From positions 1 to 25,154 of IMG/VR virus record IMGVR_UViG_3300049226_000086: DNA of 25,154 nt, one strand, 5' to 3'. The DNA comes from a virus. A program made the translations under genes and the position numbers. This document shows positions 2,065 through 20,382 of this stretch, one piece after another. Each line of letters starts with the position of its first letter. The first letter of the stretch is position 1. The notes below the pieces were generated by a model, which was not told the DNA's origin, searched no databases, and saw nothing but the letters and a program-made list of their open reading frames with translations.

Positions 2065-3491
2065 TGTCTACTAAAACGGTACGAAAGAACCTATCTAAAA
2101 ATCTATTAAAACTTCTTAATAGTGAAACAAATAAGGCAACCAGAAAAGGGGTTTCTAATCAAAAGCCTCAACTATTGTTCTTAGAAGATTTAGAATTTAT
2201 AAATGATACTATAAAAGAGCTTATTGAAAGAAAACATATTAGTAGCCGAACAAATACTTATATATTTGAAAAGCAACACCTAGAATGGGCTAGAGGTATT
2301 GCAGAGCATTATCAAGACTTTTATCTTAGAAATAATCAAACGTGGAAAGGTGGTAAAACTGATTTTGAAAACACTCAGGCCGGTATGTATTTAAAACAAG
2401 ACCATCCCAAGGAGTATAAGAAAATTATTGATGGAAAAGCCTTTATTATAAGTAGTTGGGGAGCATTAAGTAAGTGTAAAGAAGAATTAGTTAGAGGTTT
2501 GGTAGAAACTAGCGAAAAGCAGATGAAAGAAATCCTAAAAAGGATTGACCGAGGACACGGTGCTGGTAGTGGTATAGCTGTTTCTGGTATGCAACAAGCA
2601 ATGGCAGCTAATAAATTAAGTAAGTCTGTTACAGAAGAAGAGTTTAAAGAGCTGACAGGAGAATTTAAAAAGCATATTGATAATGCTTTTAAAACCGGAG
2701 AGATTACCGCTAAAGAGCGTAATCAAATAAAATCGGTATTTGTTGATTATAAAAATATTGTTAATCCTAAAACTGGGAAAGTAAAAACAGAATTTATTCC
2801 TTTTATTACTTTTCAAGATAAATATACAAATAGAGTTACAGATCGACAGAGAGAGAGTATAGTTCTTGACATAGTACGAGATTTCTTTAACAAAATGGGA
2901 GCCGGAGAGTTAGCGTCCATGGAAGGGTCTCCCTCAGTTAGAGATAAGATGTTTGCAGCGGCTATGCAACCTTGGTTGAATCATACATTTAAAGGGTTAA
3001 ACCCAAAGATTACATTTGATAAAAAGACAAATCCTAGAGGTATGAAGTATAAGACCGCGGGCAGAACCCGGCCAGAGAAACTCTCCGTTTTAGGCGGGGG
3101 ATCTCTTTCTCTAAGAAAGGCTAAAAAAGCGGTTATGCCCCCAACCAAAAAAGAAGAGCCCCAAAGATCAGGACTAAATATTACAGCAATTCTAGGATTA
3201 TTAAATCAAAAATTACCGCAGCAGGTAGCAAACAACATGGGGCCTCCTAGACTAGAAAATGTTACGGGTAGATTTGCACAAAGTGTACGTGCTACAGATA
3301 TAATGCAAACTCCTCAGGGCTTCCCAAGTATTGGATATACCTATGCAAAAGAGCCTTATCAAGTATATGAATCTACAAGTGGTAGTAGATTCTCGGACCC
3401 AATCAGGGATCCTAGACCTTTAATTGATGCGTCAATACGAGAAATAGTAGCACAGTTTGGATTGGGGCGTTTATATACTAGGAGACAATAA
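2064..3491 (+). CDS. Putative neck / tail-completion protein with unknown N-terminal part
   Basis: A soluble, basic 475-aa protein in the position where HK97-type phages encode the head-closure and tail-completion (gp10-type) proteins. The last ~95 residues (from about 382: LNQKLPQQVANNMG, then LENVTGRFAQSV, GFPSIGYTY, PYQVYE, and DPRPLIDASIREI) resemble tail-completion domains that accompany siphovirus necks, and I infer a neck role from this and from gene order. The first ~370 residues, including a charged helical section and a Gly-rich RGHGAGSGIAVSG stretch near residues 165-180, are not recognised. The protein is much longer than usual single-domain completion proteins, so it may be a fusion or carry an extra domain. 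It overlaps both neighbours by one base (TAATG at each end), indicating translational coupling. Confidence 0.5.
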   Translation: MSTKTVRKNLSKNLLKLLNSETNKATRKGVSNQKPQLLFLEDLEFINDTIKELIERKHISSRTNTYIFEKQHLEWARGIAEHYQDFYLRNNQTWKGGKTDFENTQAGMYLKQDHPKEYKKIIDGKAFIISSWGALSKCKEELVRGLVETSEKQMKEILKRIDRGHGAGSGIAVSGMQQAMAANKLSKSVTEEEFKELTGEFKKHIDNAFKTGEITAKERNQIKSVFVDYKNIVNPKTGKVKTEFIPFITFQDKYTNRVTDRQRESIVLDIVRDFFNKMGAGELASMEGSPSVRDKMFAAAMQPWLNHTFKGLNPKITFDKKTNPRGMKYKTAGRTRPEKLSVLGGGSLSLRKAKKAVMPPTKKEEPQRSGLNITAILGLLNQKLPQQVANNMGPPRLENVTGRFAQSVRATDIMQTPQGFPSIGYTYAKEPYQVYESTSGSRFSDPIRDPRPLIDASIREIVAQFGLGRLYTRRQ

Positions 3492-3943
3492 TGACGTCAA
3501 GAACTTATGCTTCAAAGAGAGCCAATATTGTTAATGCTCTTGTTACTAAGTTAAAGACAATTAATGGACAAGGAGCTTTCCTAACAGATGTAGGAGAAAA
3601 TGTACATCCTAGGCTTAAATTCTGGGATGAAATAGACGAGTTCCCCGCATTACATTTAAATGCGGGTAGCGAAACAAGAGATTATAGAACAGCAGGTGTT
3701 AGAGACAGGTTTCTAACTATAAGCATCAGATGTTATGTTCAAAATGAGGATGCCCAAGAGGCATTAAATGAGCTAATGGAAGATGTCGAAACCGTTGTTG
3801 AAGATAACTCACGATTAGCGTATACGGATAAACTAAATGCTGTCCACTATACGCAACAAATCACTGTAATTAGTATTGATACTGATGAAGGTGTACTCGA
3901 GCCTTTAGGTGTTGGCGAAATAACTATAGAGGTTCGTTATTAG
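3491..3943 (+). CDS. Putative tail terminator protein
   Basis: Expected to cap the top of the tail tube and to interact with the neck. The 150-aa protein has the usual layout of gpU/HK97 gp10-type terminators: an N-terminal helix (RANIVNALVTKLKTI), a loop with VHPRLKFWDEIDEFPALHLNAGSE (FPA and the Gly-x-Glu turn), a beta strand RFLTISIRCYV, a helix around EALNELMEDVETVVED and a final strand pair ending GEITIEVRY. Position directly before the tail tube gene supports it. A good Shine-Dalgarno (aggag at 3480-3483 region, 'ctaggagaca') lies just before the ATG, which overlaps the previous stop. No sequence search was possible, so other small neck proteins with the same fold cannot be excluded. 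Confidence 0.65.
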   Translation: MTSRTYASKRANIVNALVTKLKTINGQGAFLTDVGENVHPRLKFWDEIDEFPALHLNAGSETRDYRTAGVRDRFLTISIRCYVQNEDAQEALNELMEDVETVVEDNSRLAYTDKLNAVHYTQQITVISIDTDEGVLEPLGVGEITIEVRY

Positions 3944-4004
3944 AAAATTCTGGCACGAATAAATATTCACGACCAGTCTTTTCAAGATCATAGGAGATTA
4001 AACT

Positions 4005-5627
4005 ATGGCAGAATATTTACATTTTAGTAGAGATTCGCGGCTCTACATGGAAAAAGACGGGTATCTTTGGTCTATTCCGGTGCTTGATGGATTCAGTTTC
4101 TCCCAAGCAACAAATTCATCAGAGATTACGTTGAATGAAATGGAAGACTCTTCAGGTAGATCACGTAGAGGACGTAAGATGTTTACTGACTCTCTATCTG
4201 CAGCGGAGTGGTCTTTTAGTTCATATATACGACCCTTTAAATCAGCAGGATCAAAAGCGTATAATAATGGCGTAGCCGATAGCAGTGCTAATCATCAGCA
4301 CGCATGTGAAGAAGCCTTATGGGTAGCAATGGCAGGTAAAAATACATATCAGCCAACTACTGGTAAATTCAAGCATGGGTCAACTGGTGGTGCTATATCT
4401 AAAGTTGTAATCGCTTCAGGCGAAACTGATAGTGATAGAACAGCAGGAACTTATACTATTGCTGTACCTACGGCATCCTCAGGAACTAGTACCGGTGCTA
4501 CTGTAGCTTCTGGTTCCGGCTCAAATACCGGCGGAACAAACGCGGTAATATCAGTAGTTGTTAATGGTAGTGGTGTTGCAGACCCTACAGTTACTGAGAG
4601 AGGAATCGGGTTCGATACTGGTAATACAATTACTATTGATAGTGAACTTATTGGTGGCGGCGCTAATGATGATAATTTAGTTCTAACTGTAACTTCGGAG
4701 TCTTTTACTTCGGACGCAACTGATCTAGATATTAACTTTTACGATTCAAGTCGTGCATCATTAGGTACGTTTAACTTATACTATGTATTTAGTGATAGAA
4801 GTGCTGGTCGCTTACTCTATAAATTAGAGAACGCGGTTGTGAATGAAGCATCTATTGAATTCGATATAGATGGTATTGCACAAATTAGCTGGTCAGGAAT
4901 GGCGGGTCAAATCAAGGAAGTAGCAACAGGTTTAGGTGCAGGGCAGTATACTGCTCAAGATGCATTTCCAAATCCAAGCGCTGCAGGAGCAATTTGGATT
5001 GACACTAATGACAGTGATAAGTTTTATATGTCAACAAGTGCAACAAATGCGGCAGCAAGCTGGACTCAAGCTAGAGACGAAGGAACTACAGATACTGGAA
5101 ACTTTATCCGTAACCGACTAACTCAGTTAACACTAGCACCTGAGAGTACCTTCCAAACAGATACAACGTTTACTAATGCGGCAGGAAACTCTGACACATA
5201 TGAGACAAGTTATTCCGTTGCACTAACAGGTGGAAATGTTACAATTAGTAACAATATTTCTTACTTAACACCGGAAGAACTCGGTAAGGTTAACCAGCCA
5301 ATCGAGCACGTTGTAGGTACTCGTACAGTTACTGGAAGCGCTACTTGCTACTTAGCAAGTTCAGATGCTGCTACTAACCGAAGTCGTGACTTGTTCGCAG
5401 ATCTAGTATCTGACGTTAACACAGTTATTAACAAGTTTGCAATAACTTTGCAAGTCGGTGGAACAGATTCAACTAAGCCTAGGTTTACTATTGAATTACC
5501 CACTGCACACTTGGAGATACCAAGCCACTCTGTAGAAGATGTAATTTCACTAGAAACCAACTTCCATGGACTGGGCACAGGTGTAGGTGAAGCGGACGAA
5601 ATAACACTCAAGTACATTGGTGTATAA
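4005..5627 (+). CDS. Major tail tube protein with inserted decoration domains
   Basis: Forms the stacked rings of the tail tube. The N-terminal ~110 residues (RLYMEKDGYLWSIP, then FSFSQATNSSEITLNE and EWSFSSYIRPFK, then an ALWVAMAG segment) and the C-terminal part (SYSVALTGGNVTISNN, then PIEHVVGTRTVTGSATCYL and LEIPSHSVEDVISLETNFHGLG) look like the two halves of a tail tube beta-barrel. Between them, about residues 125-237 form a Gly/Ser/Thr-rich beta insert (GTYTIAVPTAS, GIGFDTGNTITID), and about 310-359 contain a second insert with an IWIDTNDSDKFY motif also seen in a fibre-region protein at 20382. At 540 aa it is far longer than a minimal tube protein, so the inserts probably decorate the tail surface. 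Start: ATG preceded by ataggaga. The C-terminal half shows optimised codons, as does the capsid gene. Confidence 0.75.
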   Translation: MAEYLHFSRDSRLYMEKDGYLWSIPVLDGFSFSQATNSSEITLNEMEDSSGRSRRGRKMFTDSLSAAEWSFSSYIRPFKSAGSKAYNNGVADSSANHQHACEEALWVAMAGKNTYQPTTGKFKHGSTGGAISKVVIASGETDSDRTAGTYTIAVPTASSGTSTGATVASGSGSNTGGTNAVISVVVNGSGVADPTVTERGIGFDTGNTITIDSELIGGGANDDNLVLTVTSESFTSDATDLDINFYDSSRASLGTFNLYYVFSDRSAGRLLYKLENAVVNEASIEFDIDGIAQISWSGMAGQIKEVATGLGAGQYTAQDAFPNPSAAGAIWIDTNDSDKFYMSTSATNAAASWTQARDEGTTDTGNFIRNRLTQLTLAPESTFQTDTTFTNAAGNSDTYETSYSVALTGGNVTISNNISYLTPEELGKVNQPIEHVVGTRTVTGSATCYLASSDAATNRSRDLFADLVSDVNTVINKFAITLQVGGTDSTKPRFTIELPTAHLEIPSHSVEDVISLETNFHGLGTGVGEADEITLKYIGV

Positions 5628-5629
5628 CC

Positions 5630-5673
5630 CCTTAAAAATAATTCTTGACATTGTTGGTGTTTTGAAATATAAT
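5630..5673 (+). promoter_or_regulatory. Consensus sigma70 promoter P1 with conserved upstream box
   Basis: TTGACA (5645-5650) and TATAAT (5668-5673) both match consensus perfectly and are separated by exactly 17 bases. An A-rich box CCTTAAAAATAA (5630-5641) sits three bases before the -35 hexamer. The same box, at the same distance, precedes the promoter at 19995-20023. Transcription should start near 5680, giving the second tube-like gene (5729) its own supply of mRNA. Confidence 0.9.
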
Positions 5674-5688
5674 ATGTAGGGTAAAGAG

Positions 5689-5710
5689 AAAGGGCTCTTT
5701 TGAGCCCTTT
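5689..5710 (+). terminator. Hairpin just downstream of promoter P1 (terminator-like)
   Basis: aaagggctc (5689-5697) pairs perfectly with gagcccttt (5702-5710) around a TTTT loop. The A/T ends of the stem give the look of a bidirectional intrinsic terminator, but the tail beyond the stem (atcatatgac) is poor in T. Transcription from P1 would form this hairpin within the first ~30 bases. It may stop read-through from the tube gene, or remain at the 5' end of the P1 mRNA as a stabilising cap; the sequence alone does not decide. Confidence 0.7.
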
Positions 5711-5728
5711 ATCATATGACGGATTGAA

Positions 5729-6859
5729 ATGGCAAATTTTAGATTTTTAAAAGAAGCAAGCCTATATGTCGTTTACGGCAGTAATAAGTATAAGCTAGAT
5801 ACGAACGAAATTAGCTTCAGTCAGTCATTTAAAGAAAAAAGTTACGAAGTAAAAACTATACAAGAGCAGTCAAGTTTTGAAGGGTCTGTAATAAATGAAG
5901 CAAATCCTGCAAATTTTAGTTTCAATGTACCTTTATTAAAAGAAGTACGAAACAAAGTCGTAGTAGATAGATTAATTGATTGCGAATCATTTGACTTGTA
6001 TATATCAACCGAGCAAGATGTTCTAAAACTGCAGAAATGTGTTATTCAAGATGGGACTTTCGAGATTAATAAATCTAGACCCCTGAGATTAGCAGTATCG
6101 GGTGAGGCATCTAAGCTATCAAATTATACTGGAACGATACCTGGTACTCTTCAGAATACCACCGTAACCGCCAGTACATATACATTGGCTACTATAGATA
6201 CTCTCACACTAGGTGGAGAGGATGTATCCTCAGACGTAGTAAGTCTGACCGTAGAGTTACAAAATGATATAGAGTGGAATAAGTACAATACACTTCAAGG
6301 TACTTATAGTACGACTAGTGCAAGCACCTCAATGTATCCAAGTAATTATACAATAGGTACCAGAATGTTAGGCGGAACAATTACCAAATACTTAAAAGAT
6401 GATGCTATTTTAGATTGGGGTGTAGATAAAGAATTAACGCTAACTTTAGGCGACAATGTAGGAGGGACTGTTACCTCTGTAGCCGTAACAAGCGGAGGAG
6501 GTAGCTATAGTTCCGCTCCAGCAGTCACCATTAGTGGTGGCGGTGGATCTGGAGCAACTGTAACGGCAACATTAAATGGGGCCTCAGTTTCTGGGTTAAC
6601 AATAACCAACCCAGGTACTGGATATACTAGTAATCCTACTCTTACTATTGCTGGACCTACAATGGGAGGAAGTGGTTCAACTGCAACAGGAACTGCAACT
6701 ATATCCTCTGATGTAGTCTATGGTATAGGGTTTAATGTTAGTAAATGTTCGTATACCTTACGTTCCCAGGCGGGTGCGGTATTTGGAAGCGAATATAATT
6801 GGCGCATGACGTCACAACCGGCCGCGCTTTCGAGCGTAATAGAATATACAACTTATTAG
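5729..6859 (+). CDS. Second tail-tube-like protein (paralogue of the 4005-5627 product)
   Basis: A 376-aa protein whose first ~75 residues follow the same pattern as the preceding tail tube protein: a short strand with an aromatic (SLYVVYGSNKYKLD), then ISFSQSF, a polar strand (YEVKTIQEQ), and ANFSFNVPLLKE in place of EWSFSSYIRPFK. About residues 244-327 are a Gly/Ser/Thr-rich beta segment with two similar halves (SGGGSYSSAPAVTISGGGGS and GTGYTSNPTLTIAG), a repeat style frequent in marine phage virion proteins. I infer a minor tube or tail-end ring protein that arose by duplication. It has its own promoter (P1) and upstream hairpin. The ribosome site before the ATG is weak (gacggat). A tail-tip or chaperone-like role cannot be excluded. 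Confidence 0.6.
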   Translation: MANFRFLKEASLYVVYGSNKYKLDTNEISFSQSFKEKSYEVKTIQEQSSFEGSVINEANPANFSFNVPLLKEVRNKVVVDRLIDCESFDLYISTEQDVLKLQKCVIQDGTFEINKSRPLRLAVSGEASKLSNYTGTIPGTLQNTTVTASTYTLATIDTLTLGGEDVSSDVVSLTVELQNDIEWNKYNTLQGTYSTTSASTSMYPSNYTIGTRMLGGTITKYLKDDAILDWGVDKELTLTLGDNVGGTVTSVAVTSGGGSYSSAPAVTISGGGGSGATVTATLNGASVSGLTITNPGTGYTSNPTLTIAGPTMGGSGSTATGTATISSDVVYGIGFNVSKCSYTLRSQAGAVFGSEYNWRMTSQPAALSSVIEYTTY

Positions 6860-6862
6860 GAG
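6858..6862 (+). promoter_or_regulatory. Ribosome binding site fixing the start of the chaperone gene
   Basis: AGGAG at 6858-6862 overlaps the stop codon of the previous gene and lies 11 bases before the ATG at 6874. It favours 6874 over the longer in-frame ATG at 6799, which would overlap the upstream gene by 61 bases and has no such site. Confidence 0.75.
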
Positions 6863-6873
6863 TAAAGATAGAT

Positions 6874-7326
6874 ATGGAATTAAAACAATTAGTAGTCGAT
6901 AGTAAGGCAATGTGGATAGATTTTGCTGGCCTCGACGGGTTTTCAATAGAGATTGCTAATCTCTCACGAAAAGAATTAACAGGTATACGAAAAAAGTGTA
7001 CCACTTCAAAATTTAATAGAAAAAGCAGACAAATCGAAGAAGTATTAGACGATGATAAGTTTGTAAGAGAGTTTACCAAAGGTACAATAAAAAATTGGAA
7101 GGGATTATCACTTGAACACTTAGAAACCTTACTGCTTATTGATGCAGGAGATACAGATAAGAGCGAAGAAGTGCCCTATAGTAGAGAAAATGCGGAAATA
7201 TTAGTATCTCAATCCACTGAATTCGATACATGGCTCAACGAGGTAGTCTTTGATTTAGAAAACTTTCGTGATAAGCCAAAGGGAGAAGTGCCTAGAAAGA
7301 CTGGAAGAACTGTTCAAAAACCTTGA
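6874..7326 (+). CDS. Tail assembly chaperone (lambda gpG-like)
   Basis: A 150-aa acidic, mostly helical protein between tube and tape measure genes, the place where siphoviruses encode the chaperone that coats the tape measure during tail assembly. It starts MELKQLVVDSKAMWIDFAGLDGFSIEIANLSRKEL, continues with a charged helical section (KKCTTSKFNRKSRQIEEVLDD), and has the WKGLSLEHLETLL segment near residues 71-83 typical of such chaperones. The reading frame ends at a TGA (7324-7326) inside the start of another frame (7259-7654) that continues with protein-like sequence. This is the classical G/GT arrangement, where a minority of ribosomes change frame and make a longer fusion. The basic tail FRDKPKGEVPRKTGRTVQKP belongs to the unshifted form only if slippage occurs early in the overlap. 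Confidence 0.7.
   Translation: MELKQLVVDSKAMWIDFAGLDGFSIEIANLSRKELTGIRKKCTTSKFNRKSRQIEEVLDDDKFVREFTKGTIKNWKGLSLEHLETLLLIDAGDTDKSEEVPYSRENAEILVSQSTEFDTWLNEVVFDLENFRDKPKGEVPRKTGRTVQKP
7259..7326 (+). other. Candidate programmed frameshift region (G to T)
   Basis: The upstream frame is open to 7326 and the downstream frame is open from 7259, so the switch must happen in these 68 bases. The frames differ by +1 (equivalently -2), not the commoner -1. Candidate sites seen: UUU-C at 7264-7267 (tRNA-Phe can slip +1 to UUC), GAGAA at 7283-7287 (GAA slipping -2 to GAG), the A5 run 7316-7320 (AAA slipping -2 to AAA), and CCU-UGA at 7321-7326 (a +1 shift at a stop codon). I cannot choose among them by eye. 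Confidence 0.6.
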
Positions 7327-7654
7327 TGCTGGTTTAACTCCCGACCGGTACTTTGATATGCAAGACCAGATGGGGTTAGAGATAGAGGTAGAAGAAATAC
7401 CCCCAGAATTGAATGATTTTCCAGAAGACGTACTAAGTGCGGTAGGTATATTTGGACGATTAGGAGATAGAGTATATCCTGAAATTGGTTATATAGGAAA
7501 AGACTATATTTTATTAAATGAGTTAATGCCATTATATACAATAAATGACAAAAACTTTTTCCTAGAAGTTTTACAGTGGCTAGATGCCAGAGCTATCAAA
7601 CAATCCGCAGAGCAATTAAAGCGGGAGTATGATAAAATGAAGAGAAGACACTAG
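7268..7654 (+). CDS. Tail assembly chaperone extension (lambda gpT-like, made by frameshift)
   Basis: The T-type part of a G/GT chaperone pair; in the lambda family this domain binds tail tube subunits and recruits them to the chaperone-covered tape measure. The frame opens at 7259; the first possible independent start is GTG 7268, with no ribosome site before it, and the first in-frame ATG (7358) also lacks one, so production by frameshift from 6874 is more likely. Recognisable text: LTPDRYFDMQDQMG, then EIEVEEIPPELNDFP, LGDRVYPEIGYIGKDY (about residues 65-80), and a C-terminal FLEVLQWLDARAIKQSAEQLKREYDKMKRR helix. A fusion from 6874 would be about 260 aa. The stop overlaps the tape measure start (TAGTG). 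The GDRVYPEIGYIGKD pattern is reminiscent of other marine phage tail regions, from memory only. Confidence 0.65.
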   Translation: MISQREKCLERLEELFKNLDAGLTPDRYFDMQDQMGLEIEVEEIPPELNDFPEDVLSAVGIFGRLGDRVYPEIGYIGKDYILLNELMPLYTINDKNFFLEVLQWLDARAIKQSAEQLKREYDKMKRRH

Positions 7655-10600
7655 TGGCAAATGAAATCACTTTTAAAGTTAAACTTACTGATGATGGTGG
7701 GTTAAAAGTTGTTGCTAAAGAAGCGGACAAGGCTTCTAAAGCAACTGATAAACTTGGTAAATCTACAGAAACTTTAAATAGAGCCCGAAATAGAAATAAT
7801 AAAATTGAAAAGGGTGTTGGTCAATCAGGTCTTTCTACAGCTAAGGGATTCTCTAAACAAGCAGGTGCGATAACTGGCGGTCTTGTTCCTGCCTATGCGG
7901 TTCTTGCCGCACATATTTTTGCAATTACAGCAGCCTTTAATACTTTAAAAAATGCGGCTCAAGTCGGTATTTTAGAAGAGGGTTTCGCACGCCTAGGTAA
8001 TACTGTTGGTAGAACCTCAGATTTAATGGCTAGTAGGTTAAAAGATATAACTAACGGTGCCATATCTACAGAGCAGGCGTTGAGAAGTGCCTCTGCCGGT
8101 TTCTCGGCAGGAATGTCCACAGCAGAAATGGAAGGATTGGCAAAAATTGCTAAAGGTGCTTCCATTGCTCTTGGTAGAGATTTAGGCGATGCTTTAGACA
8201 GGCTTATACGAGGTACTGCAAAGTTAGAGCCAGAAATTTTAGATGAATTAGGTCTTTTTATAAGATTAGATGATGCAGCCGCAGATTACGCCATAACTTT
8301 AGGAAAAACTGCAAATCAATTAACACAGACGGAGAAACAGCAAGCGTTTCTAAATGCAGCGTTAGAGCAGGGCGAGAGAAAATTTGGAGCAGTACAAGAT
8401 ATAGATACTAATCCTTTTAATAAACTTGCCGCATCTTTCAAAGAATTAGCAGAGAATATTCTACAATTCATTAATGTAGGTGTGATTCCTTTCATGAATA
8501 TACTATCTAATAATGCCATGGCATTAGTAGGAGTTTTGATTCTGTTTGGAAATACTGTTTTGCAAAAAATGGTTCCGGCTTTACATGAGATGGGAGAAAA
8601 GCAATTAGAGGTTGCTGAAAAAGCAAAAAAAGCCGCCCCCGCTTTAAAAAAGGTAACTAGAGAAGCTATTAGGACGGAAGAAGCTGCAATTAAAATGGCT
8701 AAGGTAAAAGCCGGTAAAAATACTATTTTTTCTCAATTACAAGGAAAGATAGGGGCTGGCAAAGGTAGTGCGAAAGATATAGAAAAGTCTATTACGTCTT
8801 TGAATGCCTCTATTAAAAAACGACAAGCACACGCTAAGAAAACAGGGGTGGTAGTTAGTGCGGAGTATAAAAGAGAGACGCAACAGTTAATAGAGTTAAA
8901 AGCACATTATGTAGAGTTAGCAGCACTAAGAAGAGGTGCTAGTAAGAAGTCTGCCACAACAGCCTTAGATATTGGTGCGGGTGGGGCAGAAGGACAAGTA
9001 ACAAAAACCATGAGTGCAATAGAGGAAGGCGGAGCAATGGCAAGTATAGGTATTGCTACGGACGGTTTTAAGAAATTTAAAGAAGAGATAGACGGTACCG
9101 ATGAAAAAACAGAAAAGTTTACCAAAGGTGCTAGTAAAATGGGCAAGGCAAATATAGCCCTTAAAAAGGGTTTACTTGTTGCTAGCGGTGCAGTAAGAAT
9201 ATTTGGTATGGCTTTTATGAAGTTTGTCCCGTTTCTTGGCTGGGCAGTATTTGCTATAGGGTTACTAGTAGCTGCGTTTAAAAAGTTATTTATGAGCAGT
9301 GATAAAGCAAAAACACCTTTACAGGAGTTAAATACGGTTGTAGATACCATGCCTGAAAAATATAAGCAATTAGGAGAAGCTATTCAGAAGTCCAACGATA
9401 GAATGGCTGTCGCTGCTACTGAGCAGGCCAAATCCGTAGAAAGAGGATACCAAATTGGACAGGCTTGGGGTGTTGCTGATGGAGTTCTTACGGAAGTAAC
9501 CCAGTCCTACGCAAAATTTAGTGCAGAACTTCAAAAGACAGATATAGGCATACTCGGTATACTTTTAGGGTATTTTACACGATTCGCAGAATTTTTACGC
9601 AGTCTCCCAAATCTATTAGACGCAGCTGGTGAAAAGTGGGATTCATGGACAACGCGGATAACAAGCTCTGCTATATGGAAGGCCGCCGCCGCTGCTATTC
9701 AAGGACCTATGACAGCAGCAGGAGACGCAATAGATTCCGTTTTAGATCCGCAAATAGACGCTACAAAAATTGCTAACGCAACCGGCCCTTTCAGAGATAC
9801 TTTACAAGCCATGATAGATAATGGTGGCCCTGCTAAGAAAGTTCTTGAAGATATGTTTTCGAAAGCGGGGGTCTCGGGTGTACAAGAATTTATAGACAAA
9901 ATTAAAGAGTCAAATACTGTAGTAAAAGTAAATGGTAAAGTATTAAAAGGTTCAGAGAGGATAATTCACTTATATAATAAAGCTTTAAAGGATGCAAAAA
10001 CAGAAACAGGAGCCATGGTTGACGCAACAAAGGGTTTTGAAAAAGCTCTAATTGAGCAAGGTAAGAAAACAACAGCATTTTTTAGTAGTTTAAACTCAAA
10101 AGATAAATTTCAAGGTCTTTCAAATGAATTAGTACTACTTTCCGGGAATATTGATAAATCTGTTGCAACTCTAGAGAAGCAAGGGGTACAAGCTGATGTT
10201 ATTTCTAAAGTTTGGAAAGATGCAGGTAACTGGTTACAAAAATATGGTATTAGTCAAGCAGACCTTGAAAGTCAAGGTGGAGCAGCGCTACAACCTCTTA
10301 TTGATGGGGCAAACAGAGTAGTAGATGCAACTGCTAACGCTAAAAACCAAATTCAACTATTAAATGCTAGTTTAAAAAGTATAAAGCTTGATGATAAGCT
10401 TGATAAAGCCCGACGCATGAATAAGCAAATGACTGAAACCCTTATCAAAACAGGAAAGTGGGAAACAACTGTAGCACAAGATGCAAAAAATATTAAAGAA
10501 GATCGAGAGGCAGCTAGATCACTGGCGGAAGCCGAATTCGGTATTAAGGTAGCTATAATAACCCTAGAACAAGAACTTTTACTTGCAAAAATTGAGTTCC

Positions 10601-11985
10601 AACTGCAGGACAAAACCCTTAGTCAGGGGCAAATTGACGCGCTCACAACACAGAGAGATATTGTGGAAGCAATGGGCATGATGAAAGTGCAAGCAGCAGA
10701 AAAAGAAAGAGATCTAGCATTAGAGACCGCAGATATTACTGCCAAATCAGCGGGTGCAGGTTTAAAAGATAAAGCTCTTACAGAAATGGGTGGGGCATCA
10801 AATCAGGGACAAAAAGCACTAAAATTTAGTGAGCAGGCGGCATCGGGTGCATTTAGTGCAGCTACTTCCGCACTGCCTGACGATGCCACTGACGATCAAA
10901 AATCCATGGCCAAGTTAACAGATTCTAGATCCCAGTTAGAGGGGTTGAAAGCATTAACAAGCGATACTATGGAGCAGCTAAAGCAGTTAGGACCTGAAGG
11001 GGAGCTAATAGCAGCAGCAACAGAAGGAGCTTATGCAATAGGTGATGCCTGGATGGAAGCAGCTATCACTATTAAGGATGGCGCGCAGGGTATGGAAAAA
11101 GGCGCAGCTATAGCTGGTGCCATCGCTACAACTATAGGACAAATTGGTAATATAATGGCAGCAGCTTCCAAAGCACGAATAGCGGGAGTTGATAAAGAAA
11201 TAGAAGCAGAAAAGAAAAGAGATGGCAAGTCAAAAGAAAGTTTAGCAAAAATAAACGCGCTCGAAAAGAAAAAAGAAGCAATGAAGAGAAAAGCTTTCGA
11301 GCAAAACAAAAAAATGCAGATGGCTCAAGTTATTGCCAATACTGCAGCAGCAATAATGGGATTATGGTCAGGAATTAAAGACCCTTACGTGGGTCCAGCT
11401 TTAGCTACTGCCCAGATGGCAGTAGTAGGAGCGTTAGGTGCTGCACAATTAGCTGTTATTGCAGGTACGTCCTATCAGGGAGGAGGTAGTGTATCTCAAC
11501 CTTCCGGACCCTCCGGTATTGCCGTAGGTAAGAGAAGGGAATCAACTGATTTAGCCAAATCACAATCAGCTCGAGGAGAGCTAGCATATTTCCGTGGAGA
11601 TCAAGGAATAGGCGGACCGGAAAACTTTAGAGCCGCTTTCTATGGTAAGAAGCATAGGGCTTACGGAGGAAATGCAGGATACATAGTTGGGGAACAAGGT
11701 CCGGAACTATTTATGCCAGATCGTCCAGGTACTATTGTTCCTGCCGACGATACTGCAGAAATGGGAGCAGCCTCAAATGTGGTATTTAATATTAATACTA
11801 TAGATGCCTCAGGAGTTGAAGAAATGTTAGAAAGTCAACAAGGAAATATTATAGGAATGCTTAGATCGGCAGCAAATGCATATGGAGAAGATTTTATGGA
11901 ATCAGTAGATGAAACTTCAATGATTTCACCCACGGTTTCATCCTACGGAGGCCCTCAAGGGTCAGCACACAGGCGGAAAAGATAA
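7654..11985 (+). CDS. Tape measure protein
   Basis: Sets tail length and takes part in DNA ejection. By far the longest gene of the tail shaft (1443 aa), following the chaperone frames, Ala/Lys/Gly-rich and helical throughout. It starts with the usual strand and helix (ITFKVKLTDDGGLKVVAKEADKASKATDKL). Hydrophobic segments lie at about residues 72-97, 272-302 and 505-545 (FVPFLGWAVFAIGLLVAAF), suited to inserting into the host membrane. A lysine-rich coiled coil occupies about 1178-1225 and leads into a hydrophobic Ala-rich run. The C terminus carries GGNAGYIVGEQGPELFMPDR (about 1339-1358), a motif very common at tape measure ends. At about 0.15 nm per residue it predicts a tail near 215 nm. 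Start is GTG overlapping the previous stop. No lytic transglycosylase or peptidase motif was recognised. Confidence 0.92.
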   Translation: MANEITFKVKLTDDGGLKVVAKEADKASKATDKLGKSTETLNRARNRNNKIEKGVGQSGLSTAKGFSKQAGAITGGLVPAYAVLAAHIFAITAAFNTLKNAAQVGILEEGFARLGNTVGRTSDLMASRLKDITNGAISTEQALRSASAGFSAGMSTAEMEGLAKIAKGASIALGRDLGDALDRLIRGTAKLEPEILDELGLFIRLDDAAADYAITLGKTANQLTQTEKQQAFLNAALEQGERKFGAVQDIDTNPFNKLAASFKELAENILQFINVGVIPFMNILSNNAMALVGVLILFGNTVLQKMVPALHEMGEKQLEVAEKAKKAAPALKKVTREAIRTEEAAIKMAKVKAGKNTIFSQLQGKIGAGKGSAKDIEKSITSLNASIKKRQAHAKKTGVVVSAEYKRETQQLIELKAHYVELAALRRGASKKSATTALDIGAGGAEGQVTKTMSAIEEGGAMASIGIATDGFKKFKEEIDGTDEKTEKFTKGASKMGKANIALKKGLLVASGAVRIFGMAFMKFVPFLGWAVFAIGLLVAAFKKLFMSSDKAKTPLQELNTVVDTMPEKYKQLGEAIQKSNDRMAVAATEQAKSVERGYQIGQAWGVADGVLTEVTQSYAKFSAELQKTDIGILGILLGYFTRFAEFLRSLPNLLDAAGEKWDSWTTRITSSAIWKAAAAAIQGPMTAAGDAIDSVLDPQIDATKIANATGPFRDTLQAMIDNGGPAKKVLEDMFSKAGVSGVQEFIDKIKESNTVVKVNGKVLKGSERIIHLYNKALKDAKTETGAMVDATKGFEKALIEQGKKTTAFFSSLNSKDKFQGLSNELVLLSGNIDKSVATLEKQGVQADVISKVWKDAGNWLQKYGISQADLESQGGAALQPLIDGANRVVDATANAKNQIQLLNASLKSIKLDDKLDKARRMNKQMTETLIKTGKWETTVAQDAKNIKEDREAARSLAEAEFGIKVAIITLEQELLLAKIEFQLQDKTLSQGQIDALTTQRDIVEAMGMMKVQAAEKERDLALETADITAKSAGAGLKDKALTEMGGASNQGQKALKFSEQAASGAFSAATSALPDDATDDQKSMAKLTDSRSQLEGLKALTSDTMEQLKQLGPEGELIAAATEGAYAIGDAWMEAAITIKDGAQGMEKGAAIAGAIATTIGQIGNIMAAASKARIAGVDKEIEAEKKRDGKSKESLAKINALEKKKEAMKRKAFEQNKKMQMAQVIANTAAAIMGLWSGIKDPYVGPALATAQMAVVGALGAAQLAVIAGTSYQGGGSVSQPSGPSGIAVGKRRESTDLAKSQSARGELAYFRGDQGIGGPENFRAAFYGKKHRAYGGNAGYIVGEQGPELFMPDRPGTIVPADDTAEMGAASNVVFNINTIDASGVEEMLESQQGNIIGMLRSAANAYGEDFMESVDETSMISPTVSSYGGPQGSAHRRKR

Positions 11986-15700: not shown

Positions 15701-18700
15701 ACTGTTGTTGAGCCCACTCCATTTGATTTCATTCCATTAGCTCCCGCAGATCTACCTGCAGGAGTACCTGCAACTACATTTGAAATTTTGCCGATGGGAG
15801 ATAAGAAAGTCTCTATTAACCCAGCTTTGCAGTTATTGGATTATATACAAAGCGAAAGATATGGAAGAGGGTTAGACTTAACTAAAGATATTAAGTTATC
15901 TACTTTTCAACAAACCGCTCGTGCTTGTGATACTAGATCAGACATTACATTAATACTAGCAGATGGTACATATGCTGTAAATGAAAAATGGTCAGCTACT
16001 AGTACAAGTGGGGGTATTGAGTATTTTCAATGGCAAGGAACCATAAAAGAAGTAACTTCTATAACCTATAATAGCGTTGCGTACAAGCAAGTAATATTTA
16101 CTGATTGTATAGGAAAAATTGCTCATAAATGGTTTGATTGGAAAACTTATGAAATAGGAAACTACATATATCACAAGATAGGTGATGTAATAAAACTATT
16201 TTTAGTTCCTGCTAATAATACAATAACAGAGCCTGTTAGTAATACTGCTAATCAAACTACTTTACCTATTAAGAAAGTAGGTACAAGTACAACTGCCAAT
16301 GTATTTATTGGTGGAAGCGGTGGCGCAACTCTTAGAGAATCTTCTTGGGATTACAATCCCGTTGTTAAAAAATATGATTCTAATAATGATGACTTTTCTA
16401 CTAATGGATACTCTCTTTATGATGCGGATGATGTCATCTATTGGAGATACTTAGGTTGGCAAGAGCACAACCAACGAGAGGTTACTAGACACCAGACTAA
16501 TGCAGTAATTCGTACGGAAACACCTGTATTTGATAACGTAAACTCAATGTTAGAGCACTTTAATGGTATATTAAGATATGCTAATGGTAAGTATGAGTTA
16601 GATATAGAACAGGCTACTCCAGTCATCCCGTCCACAGTAACGTTACATAGTACTGCATATACTGAACCTCGTAGAATAAATCAAGATGATATTGTTGGTG
16701 CAATAAGTCTTGATGATGCAGGTCTTAAAGGTAGTGCAAATAGTGTAAGTGTTGCTATTCCTGATCCTAAAGTACGATATGATACTCGTAGTGTAACATT
16801 TTTTAATTCTATTTACTTAAAAGAAGATAGAGGAATACCTAAAAAGAAAGATGTAAAAACTCCTTTTGTTACTAATTACTATAATGCAAGAATTAACGCA
16901 GAACAGTATTTGATACAATCTAGGTTCTCTAGAAAAGTTAATTTTAAAATGCACCCAAAAGGTGCTTTAATATTAGCAGGGTCTATAGTTTTGATCACCT
17001 ACGAAAGATTCGGATGGGTAGATAAAACTTTCCGAGTTAGTAATGTTCGTATAGATCCAGATTGTTTAGTACAGATAACGGCAGATGAGCACGAGGACGA
17101 TGCTTATAAAATAGATGCAAAGAAAAAGAAATTTGGGCAAGATGATGATGGGGGTCCGGGCCCGGGTCCAGATCCAGAGGGTCCAAAACCTGTTGCTCCT
17201 ACCGCCTTAACAGCAAGCACTAATGTAGATAATGCTGTAGAAGTATCATGGACTAATTCCCTAAACTTTGGAAAACCTGGAAAAGCAAAAAAACCAGTTG
17301 TATGGACTACAGAAATCCATATGAATGATAACAGTGATTATACTGCCGGAACAGGAGGCACCGAAAAAGTCACAATAGCAGGCAAGGAAGATAGTGTTCT
17401 TGTTGCTTTCCCTACTATTACTGCAGATACAACTAGGTATTTTTGGATTAAACATGTAAGAAATGGAGTAAGTTCAGCGTGGTTCCCTGCAAGTGGAAAT
17501 AATCCAGGAACAGGAATAACCGGCACAGCAATTTATAATGAGCTAAAAGATACCAAAACTCATACTGCAGAACTATTCAAAGTCTTCCCTTATAGTGAAA
17601 CTGTAGGTACCAATGCATTAACAGTATTTGATATCCCTACAATACAATGTAGTCTAGCGGATGCGACAATGGGAGATCTTAGTATACCCTCTGGAGGCTC
17701 TGGAGCTATTACTAGCGGGCAAGTTATTCAAGCAAATGGTACAGCTACTGGATGGTGGACAAGCAGTGATGCTGCAGGGTTTGGTGCAACTTCAAATACA
17801 CAACTTCAAAGAGTTTTTGTAGTAATTTCATCTTCAGACGCTGCTGTTAATATAACTGAAAGCGGAGGCACTTTTAATTGGAGTGCTCCCGAACTGGTTG
17901 CAGCTATACCTCCGGAGGCTGCTTTTGTTGCAACACCAACCAATGACAACCATTTATTCATTAATACTGGTGATACTATTTCGAATGATTTTACCTGTAA
18001 ATTTATAGTTGTATATGACGGTACTGATTTAACATATGCAACAACAGGAACTGTAGATGGTAATGGAGATCCTTATTATGGTATATTAATAACTGCGACT
18101 AGAGGGGGTCTTGCGGCATCAGGCACTTTATCACTATCTAACGGGGTTTCTACATATGGACAAGTAGTAATATCAGCAACCGGAGTTATTACAATAAATA
18201 ATGCTGCAGATATTCTTGACCCAACAGAGAGTGATGAAACTGCAGAAATTGACTACTCTATTATTAATAGAAATGATAGTAATAAAGTAATGCAAAAAGG
18301 TACTATTACTTTGGGTCGACAAAGAATCACCCGAGAAAGTGAAGAAATCACAGTCGATATTGGCGCTAGTGGCTCAGATCAGATTGATGTATCTACATAT
18401 AATGCGTGGGTCTCAGATGGTTCTCCTTGGGCGGCCACAGAGGGTGAAACTGATCAATATGCACAGGAAGCAGCGATTCACGTCATGGCAAATACTTCCG
18501 ATAACTTTATAAGACCTAATGATATTTTAACAATTACTAACGGGGTTCTTGAGACAGCCTCGAGAATATACAGTGGGCCTCATCGTAATTCTTCTGCAAG
18601 TAGTGTGCAGCACGAAAATTGGAGTAGTAAAGTTGTTAAAAGATTCGACGGTAGCGTTATTGTTGACGGTACTTTATCAGCATCTAAACTAGAAGCAAAT

Positions 18701-19396
18701 ACAACTACGACGAATCAATTAAATGTAGGAAGTATAATGAAGTTGGGTACTTCCGCAAGTGATACTGCGGCAAAATTCTATAGTCATAGCAAAACTGCGT
18801 ATGGAGACTCTACAAAAGGTTTCTTTATGGACGGTTCAGGACGTGTCCATATAGGTGATAATACAAATTATATGAAGTTTGATGGAACAAGCTTCTCGTT
18901 CGCAGGACAATTTAGTGTTACAGGACCAACTGGACCAACTGGACCAACTGGAGGAGGTGGACCTCCTGGATCCCCTGGTTCTACTGGCCCTACTGGAGCA
19001 ACTGGACCTGCAGGGGCTTCAGGTGCGACATTTGCTTTAATTACTAAAGCGAATGGAGTAGCTATGGCCGCTCCGACGACTACTGAATGGAACGCTGTGA
19101 CAGGTAGAGACCCACAAACACATGATGTTGCTGTTGTTAAACTATATAATGGTTCTGACGCAAAAAGTTATGTCTATGATGGAAGTCAGTGGAACCAATC
19201 CACTTTTATAGACGGTGATATGGTTGTATCAGGAACTATTGGAGCAAATCAAATAACCGCAAACTCAATAGATACAAATCAGTTAGCAATTTCCAACGCT
19301 TCCGGAAATAACCGTATCCATCTAGATGGAGGAAATAACCGAATAGATATATACGATGGCCCAACATTACGCGTCAGATTAGGAAACTTATCATAG
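12752..19396 (+). CDS. Central tail hub / tip attachment protein (lambda gpJ-like) with fibre-type C terminus
   Basis: A 2214-aa protein expected to close the tail tip and contact the host. J-like signs: ALPVIYGVNRVDSIPVFAD (about 381-399) followed by YVIYAICEGEVSGIYDIYVD; LLDYIQSERYGRGLDL (about 1026-1041) with ACDTRSD; and SANSVSVAIPDPKVRYDTRSV, AEQYLIQSRFSRKV and GWVDKTFRV between 1320 and 1430. A Gly/Pro linker (about 1466-1480) leads to a fibronectin type III-like domain (about 1480-1583). After an Ala/Thr-rich beta section comes a collagen-like stretch of 12 Gly-X-Y triplets (2058-2093). The end, with FIDGDMVVSGTIGANQI and RIHLDGGNNRIDIYDG, is typical of J-type tail hubs. The ATGA overlap couples it to the distal tail gene. 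Host recognition may be shared with the fibres downstream. Confidence 0.85.
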   Translation: MSTRDIDTKVQASLLAGDSFEYAHLVKFERVISTVSSKPSESSTDYSYITDASIDIAWDDGSADVQGNSNGSQTYISNRLTKVGGINETTAAKSTTLSLGVSSVALGSSIQAGNSDRVTLTPAGSSYPYTATIEMVDANDPWDERGFSEGDKIKVSHSTTTNTWHNVDLTIDRFTNNNRTAHCTIVANEKPSTTISNDQGNITIDLDTDEISAILNDPTDSTYAGYINREVFIYKAHINPNTGELIGNSATSGPYLVFKGIIAKVKLSEDPTKNSTVTWSLTSHWGDFVRVSGRVTSDAEHRALGTNGEPDANALHRHEYAGDLGFMHGEQAINIIAIYQVMETRYKMKSSGLFGLKKKMVEYQVEVDRDVDLRLNLEAKALPVIYGVNRVDSIPVFADSKYNDAAMIYVIYAICEGEVSGIYDIYVDDQSRICVDKNDSDTRATQTGDETIDVICEGRMDRGDTLSSSASSSRQQSNSDFLNMGSWSIYGQTGIGRINGRRFGVNNAPIENPNSDAGVTHEKQTLLQYPIKSKLIFHAGRSHQRSDDLITTIAEAGKANVNNGFKLQGDLDYKENYWSANHRLLDTAYVVAEYEIAEGDVTIPTLDFVMRGKEIEQYNYDYSYRAEPGTAYDATKRALYPIGSTVDFYKTDGTALAQNVQIVDSYKYINAREEEIWKYRFSQDPITIAGTTEFRMVLDGVDYDHANHYKMVTWDHKSATGTVTKTLRKAVTTNSSDGNATVTATGGSSTDGITITPADQELRDWITYLSGLAGTTVVFQIFGTTLTADDLLNTLAQLQLDSGGDNPNVTGGSGSEVISGAGNTTTDMDKITHLLISNACYIGGSQTTDDFYKGQIIKVTQSNPDGSVKTQTREIIGYDGSTKIVYTGSLSPIESNSQSIGTYTVPAYTVNSTTVVLNNVTNIPTPSNSVKLVISGEQYATSIPNGTQITGVNTTTKTLTLNQACSFGAGSSITVYKSNNAGSTVVEPTPFDFIPLAPADLPAGVPATTFEILPMGDKKVSINPALQLLDYIQSERYGRGLDLTKDIKLSTFQQTARACDTRSDITLILADGTYAVNEKWSATSTSGGIEYFQWQGTIKEVTSITYNSVAYKQVIFTDCIGKIAHKWFDWKTYEIGNYIYHKIGDVIKLFLVPANNTITEPVSNTANQTTLPIKKVGTSTTANVFIGGSGGATLRESSWDYNPVVKKYDSNNDDFSTNGYSLYDADDVIYWRYLGWQEHNQREVTRHQTNAVIRTETPVFDNVNSMLEHFNGILRYANGKYELDIEQATPVIPSTVTLHSTAYTEPRRINQDDIVGAISLDDAGLKGSANSVSVAIPDPKVRYDTRSVTFFNSIYLKEDRGIPKKKDVKTPFVTNYYNARINAEQYLIQSRFSRKVNFKMHPKGALILAGSIVLITYERFGWVDKTFRVSNVRIDPDCLVQITADEHEDDAYKIDAKKKKFGQDDDGGPGPGPDPEGPKPVAPTALTASTNVDNAVEVSWTNSLNFGKPGKAKKPVVWTTEIHMNDNSDYTAGTGGTEKVTIAGKEDSVLVAFPTITADTTRYFWIKHVRNGVSSAWFPASGNNPGTGITGTAIYNELKDTKTHTAELFKVFPYSETVGTNALTVFDIPTIQCSLADATMGDLSIPSGGSGAITSGQVIQANGTATGWWTSSDAAGFGATSNTQLQRVFVVISSSDAAVNITESGGTFNWSAPELVAAIPPEAAFVATPTNDNHLFINTGDTISNDFTCKFIVVYDGTDLTYATTGTVDGNGDPYYGILITATRGGLAASGTLSLSNGVSTYGQVVISATGVITINNAADILDPTESDETAEIDYSIINRNDSNKVMQKGTITLGRQRITRESEEITVDIGASGSDQIDVSTYNAWVSDGSPWAATEGETDQYAQEAAIHVMANTSDNFIRPNDILTITNGVLETASRIYSGPHRNSSASSVQHENWSSKVVKRFDGSVIVDGTLSASKLEANTTTTNQLNVGSIMKLGTSASDTAAKFYSHSKTAYGDSTKGFFMDGSGRVHIGDNTNYMKFDGTSFSFAGQFSVTGPTGPTGPTGGGGPPGSPGSTGPTGATGPAGASGATFALITKANGVAMAAPTTTEWNAVTGRDPQTHDVAVVKLYNGSDAKSYVYDGSQWNQSTFIDGDMVVSGTIGANQITANSIDTNQLAISNASGNNRIHLDGGNNRIDIYDGPTLRVRLGNLS
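18923..19030 (+). repeat. Collagen-like Gly-X-Y repeat in tail hub
   Basis: Twelve uninterrupted Gly-X-Y triplets: GPT three times, then GGG, GPP, GSP, GST, GPT, GAT, GPA, GAS, GAT. The first three are an exact DNA triplication of ggaccaact (18923-18949). Such stretches form triple helices in phage fibres, in keeping with a trimeric hub or fibre. Two prolines (GPP, GSP) are in the Y position, the one used by collagen-type prolyl 4-hydroxylases. Confidence 0.9.
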
Positions 19397-19407
19397 GAAA
19401 TAACTAA

Positions 19408-19974
19408 GTGAGACAAGTTGAGCAAAGTCCGATCGGAATATGGTCGGGAGAATTAGATGAGGAAACTTGCGATAGAATAATAGTTGAGGGACAACTACTA
19501 GAGCAAGAAAAAGCAACCGTATACGGCGATAAGACTGTAGATACTACTACTCGGGATAATGTAGTTGGGTGGTTTCCTAGAGATTCATGGGTAGATAGAC
19601 TTTTATTTTATTACGCACATACAACCAATGAATTAAATAATTGGAATTTTAATATAAATGATAGAGAACAAACCCAGTTTACCACCTACGGTGAAGGCGA
19701 TTTTTATAAGTGGCATAGAGATTGCAGTATTAAAAGCGATATATATAGAAAACTATCTATAACTGTACAGTTATCCAATACTAATGATTATTCAGGAGGT
19801 GAATTTAGACTAAAAGATTGTTGGGGAAATAATGAAATAGATATTACTGAAAGAGGTATGAAGAGAGGTACTATTTTAGTTTTTCCGTCTTTTTTGTTGC
19901 ATCAAGTGGAACCAATAAGAAGTGGGATGCGTTATTCTCTAGTACAGTGGTACAGCGGCCCTCCTTTTACATAA
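19408..19974 (+). CDS. 2-oxoglutarate/Fe(II)-dependent oxygenase
   Basis: A 188-aa protein with the double-stranded beta-helix of 2OG-Fe(II) oxygenases, the superfamily that includes prolyl 4-hydroxylases. Metal ligands are H103 and D105 (KWHRD) and H165 (FLLHQV), and R175 (SGMRYSLVQW) would hold 2-oxoglutarate. The conserved GGEFRL strand (130-135) and RGTILVFPSF (153-162) lie between, and all core positions are present, so it is probably active. It would hydroxylate a protein or small molecule using O2 and 2-oxoglutarate; the substrate is unknown. Start is GTG 19408 with aggaa (19395-19399) at good spacing; the gene begins 11 bases after the tail hub stop, so it belongs to the tail-tip transcript. 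The hub's collagen-like region is an obvious substrate candidate, by inference from position only. Confidence 0.85.
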   Translation: MRQVEQSPIGIWSGELDEETCDRIIVEGQLLEQEKATVYGDKTVDTTTRDNVVGWFPRDSWVDRLLFYYAHTTNELNNWNFNINDREQTQFTTYGEGDFYKWHRDCSIKSDIYRKLSITVQLSNTNDYSGGEFRLKDCWGNNEIDITERGMKRGTILVFPSFLLHQVEPIRSGMRYSLVQWYSGPPFT

Positions 19975-20043: not shown

Positions 20044-20382
20044 ATGACCGCAGCAACATATGACTTAGTGATCGACCAAGGCTCCGACTTTGCCATTGAC
20101 TTGACAATTACAGAGGGAGGATCGGCTAAAAATCTTACTGGCTACTCAGGCAGGGCCCAGCTGCGTACAACCCATGCTGCTTCTAGTGCTACGGCAAGTT
20201 TTACCGTATCTGTAGTTAATGCCACAAATGGAACAATGAAAATGGAAATGCAAGCATCCACCACTGCAGGTATTGCTGCAGGTAGGTATGTATATGATTT
20301 AGAAATTCACACTTCTGGGGACGCTACTGTAAAAAGACTTATACAAGGGAGCGTGACAATAAATCCAGAGGTAACTAGGTAA
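20044..20382 (+). CDS. Small beta-sandwich virion protein (baseplate/fibre-adaptor type)
   Basis: A 112-aa all-beta protein: YDLVIDQGSDFAIDLTI, then NLTGYSGRAQLR (about 31-42), a strand ending SFTVSVVNATNGTMKMEM, and GRYVYDLEIHTSGDATVKRL with a final GSVTINPEVTR. The 'QGSDF..NLTGYS.RAQ.R...G.Y.YDLEI' layout resembles the N-terminal domain of baseplate upper proteins and short structural proteins found in many marine phages. I infer that it attaches fibres to the tail tip. It is the first gene behind promoter P2, with ribosome site tggaga 9 bases upstream of the ATG. Its stop overlaps the next start (TAATG). Confidence 0.55.
   Translation: MTAATYDLVIDQGSDFAIDLTITEGGSAKNLTGYSGRAQLRTTHAASSATASFTVSVVNATNGTMKMEMQASTTAGIAAGRYVYDLEIHTSGDATVKRLIQGSVTINPEVTR

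Follow-up and report, generated by a model that had tools for sequence, protein, structure and literature searches.

What does an oxygenase gene do when it lies directly behind the gene of a phage tail hub that carries a collagen-like stretch? The question is raised by a 25-kb piece of a tailed phage, regarded as marine, from IMG/VR (record IMGVR_UViG_3300049226_000086, positions 1 to 25,154; this whole stretch of 25,154 nucleotides is referred to as the window), in which a gene for a 2-oxoglutarate (2OG)-Fe(II) oxygenase follows the hub gene. The best explanation of the evidence is that the oxygenase hydroxylates the collagen-like segment of the hub during assembly, which we consider probable; that the hydroxylation is prolyl in particular has slightly better than an even chance.

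The C-terminal part of the hub contains an uninterrupted run of 12 Gly-X-Y triplets (GPT GPT GPT GGG GPP GSP GST GPT GAT GPA GAS GAT), with proline at position X in six triplets, proline at position Y in two and threonine at position Y in seven. A reading made earlier from the DNA letters alone (the sequence-only reading) had claimed 12 such triplets with two Y-position prolines, which is exactly what the translation of residues 2058-2093 gives. When the hub was shuffled 5,000 times the longest triplet run was at most 6, with an expected number of 12-triplet runs of approximately 4e-10, and the observed run therefore exceeds chance. The Pfam Collagen profile (PF01391) scored the window hub at 17.1 bits, under its cut-off of 27.2; 12 triplets are short for the model, and the hub of L327, one of the loci retrieved for comparison (L numbers), passed with 55.2 bits. 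In the hubs of L018, L024 and L047 the collagen-like stretch sits at the matching place (after ...FAGQF). A second proline-rich stretch of the window hub (residues approximately 1467-1485, window positions 17149-17205, GGPGPGPDPEGPKPVAP) was also observed and is a possible alternative substrate.

The oxygenase gene starts 11 bases past the hub stop codon. The earlier claim of a complete H-x-D...H...R oxygenase gene at this distance was confirmed by the open reading frame (Table 1), by a match to PF13640 (E 5.7e-15; 56.5 bits against a cut-off of 27), which places the protein in the oxygenase superfamily, and by residues H103, D105, H165 and R175, the metal triad and the basic 2OG residue, which were unchanged across 35 aligned sequences. 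In addition, phrog_61 matched with E 2.2e-34. The AlphaFold model, built solely from the aligned sequences of the window and the retrieved loci, had a predicted local distance difference test score of 91.7 and a predicted template modelling score of 0.88, and it showed the double-stranded beta-helix fold, with Foldseek matches to solved members down to E 1.9e-12. The first nine PDB matches were all prolyl hydroxylases (the Pseudomonas putida prolyl 4-hydroxylase (P4H), the Dictyostelium prolyl hydroxylase (PHD) and vCPH of Paramecium bursaria Chlorella virus 1 (PBCV-1)), followed by human PHD2, PiuC and an algal P4H. The modelled structure is nearest to protein prolyl hydroxylases of the P4H/PHD type, a statement at the level of a fold that is common to many hydroxylases. 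Two other assignments were tried and rejected: the PLOD / LH3-type lysyl hydroxylases, as the window oxygenase is a single domain of 188 amino acids without GT_PLOD or GT25, and the DNA-repair oxygenases (PF09859, Oxygenase-NA), for which the score of 21.9 bits was under the cut-off of 26.2.

Co-occurrence of the enzyme with collagen-like hubs across phages, which the sequence-only reading had suggested as a check, was assessed in 126 distinct loci consisting of hub, slot (the position held by the oxygenase gene in the window) and anchor gene. These were gathered with the conserved gene that follows the slot and hub N-terminal motifs as baits, and thus through neighbouring genes, neither by enzyme nor by collagen. 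Two anchor alignments contained anchors of enzyme-bearing loci, so that relatives of these were somewhat over-sampled; the pattern was already visible when only the first scans, by anchor and by hub, were considered. Pfam was used to class the slot genes, the non-modifying ones being structural-looking, tail chaperones or without match. Only perfect triplet runs were counted, which under-calls interrupted collagen, as in L018 (GPTGPPGPS TP GPPGGPGPPGAS TP GPPGPG) and L326, and works against the claim. Among the 15 hubs with 12 or more triplets, 13 had a modifying enzyme in the slot, compared to 5 of the 111 others (Fisher test, P = 4.8e-12), and for the oxygenase alone the counts were 8/15 and 3/111 (P = 7e-7). 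Merging the near-identical L200, L205 and L209 gave 11/13 versus 5/111 (P = 1.9e-10), while shuffling of the enzyme labels within groups of related anchors only gave P = 5e-5, the floor of that test. Every enzyme-bearing hub had a longer triplet run than its nearest enzyme-free relative (12 versus 4 for the window, 132 versus 3 for L069, 76 versus 0 for L261 and 16 versus 4 for L296). An initial reading of the link as accidental, based on relatives in replication modules and on the empty slot of L008, was overturned by this comparison.

Such an association could also arise if the slot were a hotspot for cargo, with hub C-termini and cargo being exchanged jointly and without a functional link. 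Unrelated structural genes do occupy the slot, and the presence of the oxygenase varies between near relatives; however, structural slot genes (12 loci) showed no link to collagen (enzyme versus structural slot, P = 0.002), and collagen hubs therefore do not simply tolerate more cargo. The recruited enzymes, moreover, converge on collagen-type chemistry. Behind the L261 hub, in which lysine fills 46% of Y positions, lies a fusion of GT25, GT_PLOD and 2OG domains (Table 1) with PDB matches to human LH3 (3e-41), procollagen galactosyltransferase 1 (8e-18) and the mimivirus lysyl hydroxylase (1e-7); as predicted from its sequence, this phage fusion is a collagen-lysine enzyme resembling LH3/COLGALT. 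PLOD and GT25 domains were found in L261 and its phage homologues; the latter follow collagen-like fibres, immediately or after a few genes, in S-CAM9, S-PRM1, S-8S56 and Roseobacter phage CRP-6, the cassette order in S-CAM9 and S-PRM1 being fibre, small gene, 2OG gene, phrog_61-type 2OG gene and fusion. Lysine at Y made up 26-46% of triplets in hubs and fibres beside the fusion but did not exceed 18% in any of 33 other hubs that contain collagen (P = 2e-6). As the known substrate residue of the fusion is the residue enriched in its neighbour, hitch-hiking is hard to uphold; the pattern also recurs in an unrelated phage lineage, in cultured cyanophages and in a roseophage, and we regard joint exchange without function as quite improbable.

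The slot enzymes belong to several lineages, including two clades of the window oxygenase. In the oxygenase tree the window falls into a tail-only clade with L018, L024, L047, L048, L296 and L326-L330 (support 86/88). L069, L200, L205 and L212 form a second tail clade, whose grouping with the collagen-fibre cassette oxygenases of S-CAM9 and S-PRM1 is weak. The slot of L220 holds a GNAT-like gene and a different PF13640 gene, and that of L304 a capsule-synthesis-type transferase. GT1-type glycosyltransferases occupy the slot behind Thr-rich collagen-like hubs (Table 1) and were also observed behind Thr-rich collagen-like fibres in L317 (S-CAM7, 10022-11074) and L381 (ACG-2014f, 7989-9080), which suggests O-glycosylated phage collagen. 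It is fairly likely that tailed phages possess a general and repeatedly re-invented tail-tip collagen maturation, in which P4H-like oxygenases, LH3/COLGALT-type fusions and GT-B glycosyltransferases replace one another in a single slot behind the hub, with the type of enzyme fitting the neighbouring Y residue.

Hydroxylation of the collagen-like segment by the oxygenase also accords with an unrelated, lambda-J-like lineage (L326-L330), in which an oxygenase of the window type starts at, or a few bases from, the stop codon of a central fibre of approximately 2500 residues. The fibres of L327-L330 have 28-37 triplets with proline at Y in 19-57%, and that of L326 has an interrupted GPP-rich stretch. 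The motif GPPG was present within the last 700 residues of 7 of 10 clade-1 hubs and of 2 of 108 enzyme-free hubs (P = 8e-8), a comparison less neutral than that of the 126 loci, as four of the ten clade-1 hubs were found via the oxygenase itself. Oxygenase-linked hubs were proline-rich overall (P = 0.0004), with enrichment of proline at X (P = 0.004). From sequence, the target residue would lie among proline at X, proline at Y and threonine, proline at X being more clearly enriched than proline at Y. The segment could instead be modified at non-prolines, with threonine at Y or another residue being hydroxylated, possibly as a sugar acceptor: oxygenase-linked hubs have threonine in 26%, glutamine in 33% and proline in 6% of Y positions, the window has its seven Y-position threonines, and glycosyltransferase-linked hubs are similarly Thr-rich. 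Such a target is nonetheless unlikely, as the fold matches are mostly prolyl hydroxylases, clade-1 and enzyme-free hubs differ mainly in proline (the GPPG and X-position values above), and L328 has 16 prolines and zero threonines at Y.

A number of observations weigh against a prolyl hydroxylase dedicated to hub collagen. In collagen P4Hs the C5 carboxylate of 2OG is bound by lysine, and in hypoxia-inducible factor PHDs and lysyl hydroxylases by arginine; the presence of R175 instead of lysine in all 35 aligned sequences speaks against membership of the classical collagen prolyl 4-hydroxylases (C-P4H), to which the window oxygenase is not assigned. Proline at Y was enriched only weakly in oxygenase hubs (P = 0.04). 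In L048 the enzyme follows a hub with just 5 short triplets; L293 (36 triplets) and L285 (six Y-prolines) are without an enzyme in the slot, and L008 combines a similar hub and a short collagen patch with an empty slot. A further exception was L080, with a hub of 14 triplets and a structural slot gene. Outside the tail clade, the closest relatives (48-50% identity) are flanked by DNA polymerase and helicase genes, and among 70 replication-module loci no run of at least 10 triplets was found within 6 kb, a result uninformative on collagen elsewhere in the genome as most of these contigs do not span the tail region. No collagen-like stretch was found in 11 complete phages with oxygenase relatives at 32-38% identity, the two pattern hits being polyglycine. 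The 70 replication-module loci and the 11 collagen-free complete phages rule out a family wholly dedicated to collagen. Collagen specificity is thus not a trait of the oxygenase family as such, but largely one of its tail clades. Regular occurrence of the enzyme in phages without a collagen-like protein, which had been named in advance as speaking against virion hydroxylation, was thus seen in the wider family but not for most tail-clade members.

The same relatives bear on the proposal that the target is a host protein, DNA or metabolism, a role in DNA repair or the 2OG pool having been proposed for cyanophage relatives (PMC3037559). Relatives adjoin DNA polymerase and helicase genes or uvsW/uvsY (cyanophage relatives are often beside uvsW), the PDB entry that matched best is the prolyl hydroxylase of EF-Tu, a Pseudomonas enzyme, and a DNA-repair oxygenase family was matched weakly, under its cut-off. 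Such a target would leave the link to collagen-like hubs unexplained. Among the replication-type contigs a hub was found only in that of 91 kb (L336); it has 20 triplets, so that even enzymes in replication modules may modify collagen in trans. Overall this alternative seems unlikely. Pelagiphage-type relatives (L112-L172) were often near polyglycine (GGX) proteins, not collagen, possibly reflecting a different type of substrate, and were not counted as support. The original proposal that the enzyme acts on the neighbouring hub collagen is consequently retained in part: it is strongly favoured by co-occurrence, independent recruitment and the prolyl-hydroxylase-like fold, while more than one residue is a candidate target, the family is wider than the tail and L048 is an exception.

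On the basis of sequence comparison and structural modelling, the oxygenase is predicted to be active, with the hub as its substrate, proline as the residue and stabilisation of the tail tip as the effect. As a virion-maturation enzyme produced together with the hub, it would hydroxylate residues of the collagen-like segment, most likely prolines (at X, at Y or at both), before the chains form the trimeric triple helix of the tail tip, which hydroxylation would stabilise.

The gene order of the window runs from head-tail adaptor, tail terminator, major tail protein, two tail assembly chaperone frames and tape measure (phrog_3779) through distal tail protein (phrog_1302) to hub, oxygenase and fibre-related genes. 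The two chaperone frames overlap (6799-7326, phrog_313, and 7268-7654, phrog_3914) and are a candidate for programmed frameshifting. Hub residues approximately 200-1448 align with T5-like baseplate hub proteins, and the hub of L008 is 43-44% identical to that of the window. The gene downstream of the slot, used as a neutral anchor, is 83% identical to its counterpart in L008. No cellular or prophage relatives were found in a scan of genome contigs.

Table 1. Coordinates of features in the window and in comparison loci.
Feature	Location	Strand	Basis or remark
Tail hub / central fibre protein, 2214 aa	12752..19396	+	Gene context; T5-like baseplate hub alignment
Collagen-like stretch, 12 Gly-X-Y triplets, hub residues 2058-2093	18923..19030	+	Proposed substrate
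AGGA, possible ribosome-binding site, overlapping hub stop codon	19395..19398	+	Sequence; 9 bases before GTG
2OG-Fe(II) oxygenase, prolyl-hydroxylase-like, 188 aa, GTG start	19408..19974	+	PF13640, phrog_61, AlphaFold, Foldseek
H103-x-D105 iron-binding motif	19714..19722	+	Invariant, 35 aligned sequences
H165 (iron ligand) to R175 (presumed 2OG-binding arginine)	19900..19932	+	Invariant, 35 aligned sequences
Slot-downstream gene, 112 aa, phrog_1084 / LtfC-like	20044..20382	+	Neutral anchor for comparison
GT1-type glycosyltransferase in slot	L059:8779-9930; L064:8790-9938; L072		Thr-rich collagen-like hubs, 57-133 consecutive triplets
DUF6445 (possibly oxygenase-like) plus oxygenase	L212:16807-17358; L200:16924-17511	+	Hubs with 40-80 triplets
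PF13640 oxygenase, opposite strand in hub-anchor slot	L187:15760-16464	-	Hub with 7 triplets
GT25 + GT_PLOD + 2OG fusion, 630 aa	L261:8031-9923	+	Behind hub of 76 consecutive triplets
Cultured-phage cassettes, fusion annotated as hypothetical protein	L314 (S-CAM9) 2986-11842; L315 (S-PRM1) 3004-11845; L316 (CRP-6) 8287-11899; L380 (S-8S56)		

The hydroxylation and glycosylation of collagen count as traits of animals, giant and algal viruses being the exceptions. If the proposed role of the oxygenase is true, some of the orphan oxygenases that are common in phages would gain a function, a full cassette for collagen-lysine hydroxylation and glycosylation would be placed in phages, and small prokaryotic enzymes would become available for producing hydroxylated collagen in bacteria. 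Cultured phages with the same arrangement or its glycosyltransferase version (S-CAM9, S-PRM1, S-8S56, S-CAM7 and CRP-6) make the idea directly testable. Automatic names such as 'procollagen-lysine 5-dioxygenase' are already attached to uncultured phage proteins in UniProt. In a survey of the Baltic Sea, viral P4H genes were abundant; the authors called their use 'cryptic' and mentioned collagen in tail fibres (PMC9301287). No report of phage-made collagen modification was found in the open-access literature, the coverage of which was incomplete, making this weak evidence.

Among known systems, the collagen fibres of E. coli (Escherichia coli) prophages resemble the window hub but are without an associated enzyme; a trimeric collagen domain has been demonstrated in their side tail fibres, and the same paper states that bacteria and viruses lack prolyl hydroxylases for phage collagen (PMC3368898). 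Cyanophage and pelagiphage phrog_61 oxygenases have family and catalytic residues in common with the window oxygenase but differ in being often near uvsW or DNA helicase genes or in auxiliary clusters. A known cellular prokaryotic 2OG enzyme acts on (Pro-Pro-Gly)n at X and Y, which is the substrate pattern proposed here, and is likened to the window oxygenase by substrate, although it is without a link to phage tails. The vCPH protein of PBCV-1 (PDB 5c5t) is, like the window enzyme, a small, stand-alone, virus-encoded 2OG oxygenase, and it matched the window model with E 2.1e-10 and template modelling scores of 0.71/0.73; it differs in that its identity to the window oxygenase is 18% and its virus infects algae. 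To our knowledge, the vCPH gene does not lie beside that of a collagen-like tail protein. It has been described as a viral collagen P4H (Eriksson et al. 1999, as cited in PMC9301287). The lysyl hydroxylase-glycosyltransferase L230 of mimivirus, in the particles of which hydroxylysine is present (Luther et al. 2011, as described in PMC9614988), modifies the virus's own collagen-like structural proteins, as is proposed here, and its lysyl hydroxylase domain is matched by the L261 fusion; L230 has glycosyltransferase domains, whereas the window oxygenase has none and belongs to a bacteriophage. The window system is probably a bacteriophage variant of the virus-made collagen modification known from PBCV-1 and mimivirus.

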